NCBI RefSeq assembly: GCF_003967515.1
Contig: NZ_BIFQ01000002.1
Location: forward strand, 1,178,001 to 1,242,000
Direction of reading: 5' to 3'
Length of the DNA stretch: 64,000 nucleotides
Source of the DNA: Dictyobacter aurantiacus
Lineage (GTDB): Bacteria > Chloroflexota > Ktedonobacteria > Ktedonobacterales > Ktedonobacteraceae
This document shows, one piece after another, positions 14,436 through 44,850 of the stretch (position 1 is the first letter of the stretch; every line of letters begins with the position of its first letter). Made by a program: the position numbers and the translations under genes. Under the pieces are notes generated by a model. It saw nothing but the letters and a program-made list of their open reading frames with translations. It had not been told where the DNA came from and ran no database searches.

Positions 14436-14718
14436 CCTGCCCAACAACCTGACGTACCGCAATCTATTTTCAACAATATATTCATATATGTTTATTTGCC
14501 ATATCAGGAGCTGTTATAGCACAATAAACGATATTTTGCCATAATATAGAACACGGTAGATTTGTGACGCAATCCATGGATTCACATGCCTCTCGCGCAT
14601 AAAATAGCCCCATAAGAAACGCGGCTAAGCAGCACGTTCTTAGAACAATAATCAATACCCATCACAATAGTAGTCAATGCCTATCAAGACTCTTACCATA
14701 GCAAGAGGTACATTGCTA
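14436..14718. other. Gene-free AT-rich spacer
   Basis: Together with the hairpin that follows, this forms a 353-bp space between convergent genes. It is AT-rich with runs such as ATATATTCATATATG. No open frame with a ribosome site and no terminator apart from the 14719 hairpin was seen. Confidence 0.5.
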
Positions 14719-14788
14719 GTAGTGGTGTATAGAAAATAGTGCACGGGGCGCATTCGCGCCCCGTGCACTATTTTCTATACACCACTAC
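14719..14788 (-). terminator. 33-bp perfect hairpin at the exporter gene end
   Basis: Two 33-base arms (14719-14751 and 14756-14788) are perfectly complementary around the loop ATTC. The apex reads GGGGCGC-ATTC-GCGCCCC. The right arm touches the stop codon of the minus-strand exporter gene at 14789. It is far longer than an ordinary terminator and belongs to the long-hairpin series of this window. Confidence 0.75.
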
Positions 14789-16258
14789 TTACATACCAGT
14801 CTCGGCGCCAAGGGTGGCTTCGATAACGGCCTTTTCTTTGGATGCTGATCCGGTGCGCTGCATGGTAGAGGCGGCGTCGCTATCACGAACAGCGAGTCCG
14901 ATCAAAGCGGCGATCAGGACCAGAATGGCGGAGGTGATAAAGGCCGCATGGTAGGCGTTCAAGTTGGGAACGGCCACACCATGGGTATTCATCTGGGTAA
15001 TGCCAACAAAGCTAATTACAGTGCTGATGATGGCCACCCCAAGTGAGGAACCGATCTGACGCTGAGCATTGCTAAGCGCGGAAGCCTGACCGGTCTCGGC
15101 TGGCGAGATGGTAGCGAAGGCGGCCGCCTGCACCGGCAGGAATGAGTTAGCCATACCCGCTCCAATCAAGAACATCAATCCACGCATCAGCCACAGGCTG
15201 GTATCCTGGCCCATCAAGTTCATCAGCAGCATAAAAACGGTCACGCATCCCAGTCCATAGACGATCAGGCGTCGAGGTCCCACATATGGGTAGAGGCGAG
15301 CCGCGATCTGGGTCATGACCAGCACCCCAAGCGCCTCGGGAAACGTAGTCAGACCTGAAGTAAGAGCCGACACACCACGTCCCTCCTGCAAGAACAAAGG
15401 TGCCGCGTACAGCAATCCCAGGAAGCCCGCGCCCGAGAAGAGCGAGAGCAGGTTGCAGGTGCGGAAAGAGCGATTGCGCAGCAGACGCAGATCGAGCATT
15501 GGATGTGAAGCCCGCAGTTCAACAACGACAAAGGCCACCAGAATAAGCCCCCCGGCGGCACCGCAACTCAGGATCCCGATCGAGGTCCAGCCATAGTTTG
15601 GACCTTCACTCAGGGCGTACATAGCCAGGCCCAGGCCGATGCCGGCCAGAAAGAAGCCCATCACATCAAAGCCGCCCACCGACTCCTCATAGTACTCCTC
15701 AAGGAAAAGCAGGCCAAACAACGCGGTCAGGATACCAATAGGCACATTGACAAAGAAGACCCAGCGCCATGAGAACTGGGTGATCAATAAGCCACCCAGA
15801 ACTGGTCCCATCGCGGGAGCAAATACAGTAGGGATATTCAGGATACGTGATACCTGCACACGTTCCGCAGGTGGGAAGGTACGATACAGAAGAGCCGTAC
15901 CAACGGGGGTCAACGCACCACCAGCCAGTCCCTGCAAGACACGAAATAGGATAAGCATTGGCAAACTCGGCGCCAGTCCACACATCGCAGAAGTAACACT
16001 AAACAGCGCCAGGGCGCTCAAGAAGATACGCTTGTTTCCAAAGCGGTCACCCAACCAACCCGAAGCCGGGATCACCACCGCCAGGCTTACCAGGTAACCC
16101 ACCACCACCGCATCAATCCCGGTACCAGAAACACCAAATTGCCGCCCCAGTGAAGGCAGGGCGACAGTAACAATCGTGCCATCCATAATACTCATAAACA
16201 TAGCAGCAACGAAGACGACACTAACAGAAATTTTGGGGTTCATGTGAAGACGAGGCAT
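14789..16258 (-). CDS. MFS drug exporter, DHA2 (EmrB/QacA) family
   Basis: A 489-residue membrane protein with about 14 hydrophobic segments, the number expected for DHA2 drug:H+ antiporters. The first helix carries AMFMSIMDGTIVTVALPSLG, the family motif D1 with its conserved Asp. Motif A is GWLGDRFGNKRIF after helix 2, and motif C (GPVLGGLL) lies in helix 5. The ATG at 16258 has TGGAG upstream; an internal ATG at 16243 is possible. It stands alone with no adjacent regulator and ends against a 33-bp hairpin. It probably exports toxic organic compounds; the substrate is unknown. Confidence 0.92.
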   Translation of the reverse strand: MPRLHMNPKISVSVVFVAAMFMSIMDGTIVTVALPSLGRQFGVSGTGIDAVVVGYLVSLAVVIPASGWLGDRFGNKRIFLSALALFSVTSAMCGLAPSLPMLILFRVLQGLAGGALTPVGTALLYRTFPPAERVQVSRILNIPTVFAPAMGPVLGGLLITQFSWRWVFFVNVPIGILTALFGLLFLEEYYEESVGGFDVMGFFLAGIGLGLAMYALSEGPNYGWTSIGILSCGAAGGLILVAFVVVELRASHPMLDLRLLRNRSFRTCNLLSLFSGAGFLGLLYAAPLFLQEGRGVSALTSGLTTFPEALGVLVMTQIAARLYPYVGPRRLIVYGLGCVTVFMLLMNLMGQDTSLWLMRGLMFLIGAGMANSFLPVQAAAFATISPAETGQASALSNAQRQIGSSLGVAIISTVISFVGITQMNTHGVAVPNLNAYHAAFITSAILVLIAALIGLAVRDSDAASTMQRTGSASKEKAVIEATLGAETGM

Positions 16259-22959: not shown

Positions 22960-23016
22960 TTGACAACTAGAATGCTAGTATACTACTATAGTAGTATACT
23001 AGCATTCTAGTTGTCA
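22960..23016 (+). promoter_or_regulatory. 56-bp perfect palindrome over the promoter of the RHH-VOC gene
   Basis: Positions 22961-23016 form a perfect 56-bp palindrome centred on TATA. It includes the -35 TTGACA (22960-22965) and the -10 TACTAT (22984-22989), 18 bases apart, so anything bound to it would control transcription of the gene starting 17 bases later. Each half carries two CTAG steps and a TAGTATACTA motif, giving repeated half-sites as ribbon-helix-helix proteins prefer. It could also act as a terminator hairpin for the preceding gene. Confidence 0.65.
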
Positions 23017-23032
23017 GGAAAGAAGGCGAAGG

Positions 23033-23584
23033 ATGAAAGAAGCGAAACAGCAATTTAATGTGTACCTTACCCCCGAGACCGTTAAAAAGATGAAGCACCG
23101 TTCCATTGATGAGCAACTCTCATTATCCGACCTGGTAGAAAAAATTTTTAACGCGTACCTGGTCAACACGAGCGAGGAGCGTCTTCCACAATCAGCACCC
23201 CCGATTGAGCAGTCAGAAGAGACGTTACGCCTTCAGCCCATGTTACACGTCGAGGATATGGGTCGAGCGCTGGATTTCTATAGCAAACTCGGCGCAACCA
23301 TCGTTCATGGAAGCCGGGATGGGGACTGGGCATTGTTGCGAATCGGCCAGACCGAACTGGGATTACTGGCGCACCCGGCCAATCCCGACCAGAACGAGGG
23401 CCGGGTTGAGCTCAACTTTGAATATGGTGCATCGCTGGAAGAGTTAGAGAAAAAGCTGCGTGCCGCCGGAATTACCATCGCCCGTCCAACAGGCGATGAA
23501 GGCTTTGGCTACCAGCTACAGCTAGAAGATCCAGATGACATGCTGGTAAAAATTAACCAACTCGATCCCGAGTTATACAACTAA
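23033..23584 (+). CDS. Ribbon-helix-helix/VOC fusion, probable ligand-sensing regulator
   Basis: A 183-residue two-domain protein. Residues 1-48 (QQFNVYLTPETVKKMKHRSI, then DEQLSLSDLVEKIF) match a ribbon-helix-helix DNA-binding unit: a short basic beta strand followed by two helices. Residues about 62-180 form a VOC/glyoxalase-like beta-alpha-beta domain (MLHVEDMGRALDFYSKLGAT, later LEDPDDMLVKI) as in bleomycin-resistance proteins. The usual metal His/Glu set is incomplete, suggesting binding and not catalysis. A 56-bp perfect palindrome overlaps its promoter. An autoregulated one-component sensor is inferred. GGCGAAGG precedes the ATG. Confidence 0.75.
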   Translation: MKEAKQQFNVYLTPETVKKMKHRSIDEQLSLSDLVEKIFNAYLVNTSEERLPQSAPPIEQSEETLRLQPMLHVEDMGRALDFYSKLGATIVHGSRDGDWALLRIGQTELGLLAHPANPDQNEGRVELNFEYGASLEELEKKLRAAGITIARPTGDEGFGYQLQLEDPDDMLVKINQLDPELYN

Positions 23585-23606: not shown

Positions 23607-23760
23607 TGGGAATGTGTTAGCCCCCATACGCGCGGCCGCTACGCAGCCGCGCTGAGTTTATATATTGCTGCATCGGGGGCGCATCCGCGCCCCCGATGCA
23701 GCAATATATAAATGACTTGAGCACCGTAGATGCAAGTCATTGAGCGCCGCAGGTGCGAAC
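23607..23760 (+). repeat. Composite hairpin element, copy 3
   Basis: The 5' module runs from ATTGGGAATGTGTTAGC to the core GCGGCCGCTACGCAGCCGC (23632-23650). The hairpin has 26-bp perfect arms (23657-23682 and 23687-23712), loop ATCC and apex CGGGGGCGC. The 3' module contains two versions of the tail motif, GAGCACCGTAGATGC and GAGCGCCGCAGGTGCGAA, and the first is itself enclosed by ATGACTT/AAGTCAT. No terminal inverted repeats could be fixed. It fills most of the 340 bp after the RHH-VOC gene. Confidence 0.75.
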
Positions 23761-33416: not shown

Positions 33417-33538
33417 GTATGCGTAAGCGTCTCTTACAGGCGTCCGCATGCGCGGCCGCCTCGTTTATAAGTTGTGGTGAATGATGCAAATGCCGCGCCA
33501 TGGCGCGGCATTTGCATCATTCACCACAACTTATAAAC
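33417..33538 (+). repeat. Composite hairpin element, copy 4 (76-bp perfect palindrome)
   Basis: The 5' module TAGTATGCGTAAGCGTCTC leads to the core GCGTCCGCATGCGCGGCCGC (33440-33459). The palindrome has 37-base arms (33463-33499 and 33502-33538) with only AT between them and no mismatch. No 3' tail motif is present; the sequence continues directly into the LacI promoter. It lies between divergent genes, so it is not the terminator of either. Confidence 0.8.
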
Positions 33539-41846: not shown

Positions 41847-41922
41847 TATTTTTGAGGGATGAGGCAACACCAGGGGAGGTGCATTCGCACCTCCCCTGGT
41901 GTTGCCTCATCCCTCAAAAATA
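41847..41922 (-). terminator. 36-bp perfect hairpin after the peptidase gene
   Basis: Arms 41847-41882 and 41887-41922 are perfectly complementary around ATTC. The apex GGGGAGGTGC-ATTC-GCACCTCCCC matches the GC-ATTC-GC apex of other long hairpins here. It lies 27 bases past the end of the minus-strand peptidase gene. Confidence 0.75.
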
Positions 41923-44512: not shown

Positions 44513-44850
44513 CCTGATGGGGGGTACATTAGCGCTCCCGCACGCGCGTCCGCTGCGCGGCCGCATTGTTTTTTCTGTTGATGCGTGTGGTGTGTGTGCT
44601 GTGGCACACACACCACACGCATCAACAGAAATATAGTCTGTGGGCACTGCAGGTGCATTACAGCACACACACCACACGCACTAACAGAAACATGGTCTGT
44701 GGATACCGCAGGTGCACCACAGCACACGCACCAACAGAAACATGGTCTGTGGATACCGCAGGTGCACCACAGCACACGCACCAACAGAAACATGGTTTGT
44801 GGATACCGCAGGTGCGCCACAGCACACCTACTACGCATGCAGGCATTTTG
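44513..44850 (+). repeat. Composite hairpin element, copy 5, with tandemly duplicated 3' arm
   Basis: The 5' module GATGGGGGGTACATTAGCGC leads to the core GCGTCCGCTGCGCGGCCGC (44546-44564). The hairpin has 28-bp perfect arms (44572-44599 and 44604-44631), loop TGTG. After it, the 3' arm plus the tail motif (CTGTGGATACCGCAGGTGC) is repeated: repeats of AACAGAAA start at 44624, 44683, 44733 and 44783, the last three exactly 50 bp apart and the first 59 bp from the next. Each repeat brings a further partial copy of the right arm able to pair with the single left arm. Confidence 0.85.

Follow-up and report, generated by a model that had tools for sequence, protein, structure and literature searches.

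The RHH-VOC gene and its promoter region

Within the 64,000-nucleotide stretch of the Dictyobacter aurantiacus genome analysed here (the window), one gene of 183 codons joins an N-terminal ribbon-helix-helix (RHH) DNA-binding unit to a C-terminal VOC domain. A perfect palindrome, regarded here as a putative operator, overlaps its predicted promoter, and a perfect hairpin lies downstream (Table 1).

Table 1. Features of the RHH-VOC locus, in window coordinates
Feature	Position	Strand	Basis
-35 element TTGACA	22960-22965	+	consensus match, 18-nt spacer; predicted
Putative operator: 56-bp perfect palindrome, six contiguous 8-bp boxes flanked by 4-bp ends	22961-23016	.	exact inverted repeat, box phase, 8-bp CTAG pitch kept in relatives
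-10 element TACTAT, within the putative operator	22984-22989	+	best -10 by consensus match; predicted
RHH-VOC fusion gene, 183 aa	23033-23584	+	ORF; orthologues of 37-81% identity, aligned nearly full length
RHH DNA-binding unit, residues ~7-48	23051-23176	+	profile, structure-prediction and Foldseek matches
VOC (glyoxalase/bleomycin-resistance fold) domain, residues ~66-182	23228-23578	+	PF00903, E 7e-7; Foldseek
Perfect hairpin downstream of the gene, 26-nt arms	23657-23712	+	inverted repeat; putative terminator

The palindrome consists of two 28-nt arms (22961-22988 and 22989-23016) that are 100% complementary and meet without a loop, which confirms the 56-bp perfect palindrome of a sequence-only reading of this DNA; between its end and the ATG at 23033 we counted 16 nt, where that reading gave 17 bp. 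It does cover the -35/-10 region of the gene, its first bases falling inside TTGACA and the best -10, TACTAT, lying wholly within it. Of the half-sites proposed earlier, the CTAG repeats stand, whereas the TAGTATACTA half-sites are better replaced by six in-phase 8-bp boxes with 4-bp ends, the boxes being, in order, AACTAGAA, TGCTAGTA, TACTACTA, TAGTAGTA, TACTAGCA and TTCTAGTT. Transcription is expected to start near 22996, and the mRNA would carry part of the right arm only, without a hairpin; with the predicted start inside the right arm, a role of the palindrome as an RNA hairpin or terminator was rejected. The downstream hairpin is probably the terminator of the RHH-VOC gene, which would then form a transcription unit of its own.

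Perfect inverted repeats with arms of at least 15 nt are common in this genome: 83 were found in 464 kb of genome samples (including L149-L168), or about 1.8 per 10 kb, versus none in 400 kb of a Markov-1 null. The perfection of the 56-bp palindrome is therefore not special by itself; its CTAG pitch of 8 bp is. Most of the other perfect repeats are terminator-like, with short loops and GC-rich cores, unlike the repeat at 22961-23016, which is loopless, overlaps a promoter and has a G+C content of 32%. Repeats elsewhere in the window (for example 33463-33538, 41847-41922, 14718-14789 and 44572-44631) and in the genome samples have arms of 15-40 nt, often a 4-nt loop, a GC-rich core and AT-rich ends. 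By extrapolation, the genome holds some 1,600 long perfect inverted repeats, which are probably intergenic terminators.

Domain structure of the encoded protein

The N-terminal unit, which had been placed at residues 1-48, was located at residues ~6-48 by its match to PDB 9kkd, an entry titled 'the structure of StnY'. The match reached E 2.5e-5 with the single sequence and E 4e-21 with the family profile, the latter assigning StnY and the window unit to the same RHH subfamily. The unit comprises a strand, QFNVYL, and two helices (residues 14-27 and 31-47/49). The profile-HMM search suggested at the outset succeeded for Glyoxalase (PF00903, above the cut-off) and not for RHH_1, whose match to the N-terminus was sub-threshold on its own (E 0.12). 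An AlphaFold model of the whole protein, built with seven orthologues and of moderate confidence (pLDDT 67, pTM 0.54), shows a pair of helices at the N-terminus and a VOC fold, joined by a linker of low confidence; it lacks the RHH strand, as expected for monomer-only modelling. When the RHH part was modelled alone, the pLDDT was 84 and Foldseek returned StnY as the best match, followed by CdbA and a CopG-DNA complex. The N-terminus is thus predicted to have the two-helix core of an RHH fold, the absence of which would have counted against the sequence-only reading, and the solved structure closest to it is that of an RHH protein. Both the strand-helix-helix order and the sequence profile place it in the RHH (MetJ/Arc/CopG) superfamily. 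The strand of Arc has the same Q-F-N motif, and Arc Gln9 and Asn11 contact TAGA subsites; by analogy, the motif in the window protein would fit a CTAG core.

A C-terminal glyoxalase-like domain, earlier assigned to residues 62-180, is confirmed with only slightly different limits. The PF00903 match spans residues ~70-172 with 30.1 bits, and this score, the order of strands and helices, and the Foldseek results agree on membership of the VOC superfamily. Foldseek matches of the VOC model include 4pav (an uncharacterised S. aureus protein) and Ble, FosA, glyoxalase I and mitomycin-resistance structures. With the drug-binding Ble and mitomycin-resistance proteins (1ewj, 1ecs, 1kll, 2a4x) the window protein has in common its VOC fold and a partial loss of the glyoxalase metal ligands; it differs from them in its weak sequence similarity and in the addition of a fused DNA-binding domain. 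Of the four metal ligands that define glyoxalase I and metal-dependent VOC enzymes (H5, E56, H74, E122), H5 is replaced by Q68 and E122 by K172, while E56 and H74 could not be reliably aligned, and the full set is therefore not present. These two replacements would favour binding over catalysis. The relatives G249, G193 and G344 retain Glu at the E122 position.

An array of CTAG boxes upstream of related RHH genes

The 200 nt in front of each of 29 related RHH genes (from Chloroflexota, Actinomycetota and Burkholderia) were searched for exact CTAG pairs with an 8-bp spacing, windows of the same loci serving as background. Such pairs precede 25 of the 29 genes, versus none of 5,268 background windows, although some of the genes are close kin (two Burkholderia, several Streptomyces) and the counts are not all independent. 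Split by source, the pairs occur at 15 of the 19 loci from genomes and at all 10 from plasmids (background 0 of 3,828 and 0 of 1,440). Two of the remaining four genes have 16-bp pairs and two have one CTAG accompanied by degenerate boxes in phase with it, and overall the spacings 8, 16, 24 and 32 predominate. The 46 boxes yield a symmetric consensus, T(G/A)CTAG(C/T)A, and in most of these promoters they overlap TTGACA-17/18-TAnnnT-like elements; in L086 a CTAG box extends into the start codon. The control group of weaker RHH matches, VapB-like and accompanied by PIN-like genes, is devoid of CTAG boxes.

The nearest relative (L004) has a different perfect palindrome, 40 bp long and containing three CTAG boxes, and in other relatives the palindrome is imperfect and the boxes are kept. 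Conservation of the palindrome in front of homologues, raised in the sequence-only reading, thus holds for the CTAG-box array, which recurs in three phyla, and fails for the long perfect palindrome, which recurs only in L004; nor do the homologues lack the RHH N-terminus and the upstream site, since both are kept across those phyla. As judged from these comparisons, the conserved part of the putative operator is its row of 8-bp CTAG boxes rather than the 56-bp perfect palindrome. If a StnY-type RHH subfamily is delimited, as here, by a QFNVYL-type RHH unit, a VOC partner and an 8-bp CTAG pitch, the window gene belongs to it.

A separate observation concerns the arms themselves. The operators of the window gene and of its L004 orthologue are both perfect yet differ in length and centre, which suggests that the arms have repeatedly been made identical by some conversion process.

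Fused and split forms and their neighbours

Orthologues in the same class range from 81% to 37% identity, and more are found elsewhere in Chloroflexota and in Lacisediminihabitans and other Actinomycetota. Further relatives, retrieved with the RHH consensus only, lie on plasmid records of Streptomyces, Embleya, Streptantibioticus and Burkholderia. An origin in a mobile element was considered and rejected, because searches with the whole protein matched neither phages nor plasmids and viral contigs yielded no relative.

Each strong match to the RHH profile in the sampled loci is either fused to a VOC domain or followed directly by an overlapping or adjacent VOC gene; the VOC frame is apparently disrupted in two loci of the family. 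A tree of 15 members requires three changes between the fused and split states, at least two of them forced by well-supported branches. The fused form belongs to a wider family, many of whose members encode RHH and VOC in two overlapping genes, and the repeated fusion of these neighbours argues that both products act together. Some individual arrangements depart from the common ones. At one locus of G036 (L129, G036:C1:2559500-2570000) about 2 kb of sequence containing stops separates the RHH part from the VOC parts, and the four-CTAG operator is intact; the insertion that splits the gene carries recombinase- and TnpB-like ORFs and appears IS607-like by eye. The gene after RHH encodes two tandem VOC modules in L085 and L086 (G610, G669), and L084 (G530) is a divergent RHH-VOC fusion from Actinomycetota with the RHH strand RRQMNVEL.

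Neighbouring genes in relatives, the unannotated ones named by eye from their translations, include MFS exporters (G043, G035a, L140), FAD monooxygenases (G035b, G035c) and SAM methyltransferases (G175, Streptomyces). These suggest a link to detoxification; directly beside the window gene we found no resistance gene. The literature searched, to which subscription journals mostly do not belong, gave no description of an RHH-VOC regulator class, in line with the earlier remark that this domain pairing is not known as a described regulator class. The window gene belongs to a cross-phylum family of RHH-VOC regulators that is apparently undescribed and has a conserved operator code.

Extent of the regulon

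Searches of the genome itself (G000) and of G024 gave no further exact copy of the triple-box site except a separate TGGTCTAGACCA-type site, and relaxed two-box matches with at most 2 mismatches showed no excess (17, versus 33 in a reversed-pattern control). Because the box array is nearly unique in the genomes searched, the protein would chiefly regulate itself. A wider regulon reached through the other triple-CTAG sites of G000 and relatives was rejected, these sites being of the TGGTCTAGACCA type and lying beside lipoprotein and sugar-isomerase-like genes. Sites of this type, which also have an 8-bp CTAG spacing, occur at G000:C1:3140387-3140405 and 3140668-3140686 and at L024 and L026-L028; in this genome and in related ones alike they precede one gene for a lipoprotein and another that is sugar-isomerase-like. 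They resemble GntR-type (DasR/NagR) operators, unrelated to the RHH-VOC gene.

A proposed model for the RHH-VOC gene and its alternatives

The explanation that we consider probable as a whole is a one-component, self-repressing regulator whose VOC domain serves as a small-molecule sensor and which is released by its ligand. Taken from sequence comparison, the gene is very probably a self-repressing switch, and this switch probably responds to a toxic small molecule; the autorepressor proposed in the sequence-only reading gains support from the predicted RHH fold and from CTAG boxes that lie over the promoter and are kept in three phyla. The fold family, the layout of the CTAG boxes, their conservation and near-uniqueness, and the unbroken association of RHH with VOC in the sample are observed; DNA binding, repression, ligand binding, induction and a soaking-up role are inferred as follows. 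RHH dimers would bind the 8-bp CTAG boxes of their own promoter, adjacent dimers lying against one another in a cooperative row, as MetJ does on met boxes. The resulting array would cover the -35 and -10 elements and repress the gene. Binding of a small toxic molecule, antibiotic- or quinone-like, by the VOC domain would free the promoter of repressor, more protein would be made, and the induced protein would both sense and soak up the compound. The soaking-up role is the weakest step. More tentatively, and with less than even likelihood, RHH-VOC fusions and RHH/VOC pairs may form one cross-phylum sensor family in which the RHH unit and the CTAG operator stay constant while the VOC domain is exchanged according to the toxic compound, the fused form being sensor, switch and drug sponge in one.

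Two alternatives concern the VOC domain. It could be an active metal-dependent enzyme, glyoxalase- or FosA-like, that stands under a fused repressor and has no sensor role. The many enzymes of the superfamily, the presence of FosA and glyoxalase I among the Foldseek matches and the Glu retained in three relatives speak for such an enzyme, but the metal-ligand replacements described above for the window protein and its weak sequence matches to Ble-type binding proteins make it unlikely. An autorepressor without a small-molecule ligand, in which VOC is a structural or co-repressor part of a toxin-antitoxin-like or purely homeostatic module, also seems improbable. Although the split versions have the layout of RHH antitoxins, with an overlapping partner gene and repeated operator boxes, fusion in several lineages (at least two state changes) would join a toxin to its antitoxin in one chain, the VOC fold is like that of drug-binding and detoxifying proteins, and the neighbours include pumps and monooxygenases. 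Type II toxin-antitoxin systems have a separate toxin gene, whereas here there is a single fused gene, and its VOC partner lies outside the known toxin families.

The other two concern the DNA. A larger regulon, with the fused gene as one target among several, is favoured by some split operons in which the promoter also serves a third gene, for a methyltransferase or a monooxygenase; with no other triple CTAG array in G000 bar the TGGTCTAGACCA-type site, and with two-box matches below the control, we give it little credence. That the palindrome is simply one of the many perfect hairpins of the genome, a terminator or neutral repeat placed before the gene by chance, draws on the abundance of such repeats, yet is very improbable: most of the others differ from it in core, loop and setting, and the cross-phylum recurrence of CTAG boxes at 8-bp pitch contradicts it.

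The operator code of this sensor family is testable: wherever CTAG boxes at 8-bp pitch lie in front of an RHH gene, an RHH-VOC module is predicted, and its VOC domain may point to the ligand of the sensor. If true, the model would also supply ligand-inducible switches for Streptomyces and Chloroflexota.

Comparison with known systems

In the literature, StnY figures as a regulator of the CopG family within the streptonigrin cluster of Streptomyces flocculus, and its promoter, with a -10 of TAGCAT, an extended TGC and a transcription start at -16, as strong and constitutive in several heterologous Streptomyces hosts; the available passages of that paper report no repressor role or repression test for StnY (PMC10339500). 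It differs from the window protein in being a stand-alone RHH protein of 60 residues rather than a VOC fusion, and a VOC partner is unmentioned in the papers on the streptonigrin and nybomycin clusters. In the promoter as given in those passages, TGC and TAGCAT together can be read as a TGCTAGCA box lying over the -10, like the boxes of the family, and for this reason the 'constitutive' promoter may be one freed from its repressor. If so, the behaviour outside the native cluster of what is already a strong engineering promoter would be explained; this assumes that the repressor is absent from the hosts, which may carry RHH-VOC homologues of their own.

MetJ is an RHH protein that binds contiguous 8-bp palindromic met boxes as a cooperative array under small-molecule control. 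The window protein has the RHH fold in common with MetJ, and its putative operator the 8-bp pitch; the differences are the box, TRCTAGYA here versus AGACGTCT, and the separate VOC ligand domain. TipAL/TipAS of Streptomyces lividans is a sensor that regulates its own gene and sequesters the antibiotic with its ligand domain, and the action proposed for RHH-VOC proteins would resemble it by analogy of working only, TipAL being an activator of the MerR type whose ligand domain has an unrelated fold and the window protein an RHH protein and probably a repressor. NikR, PutA and other RHH fusions likewise carry, in a single polypeptide, RHH and a domain for ligand binding or catalysis, this partner domain being other than VOC.
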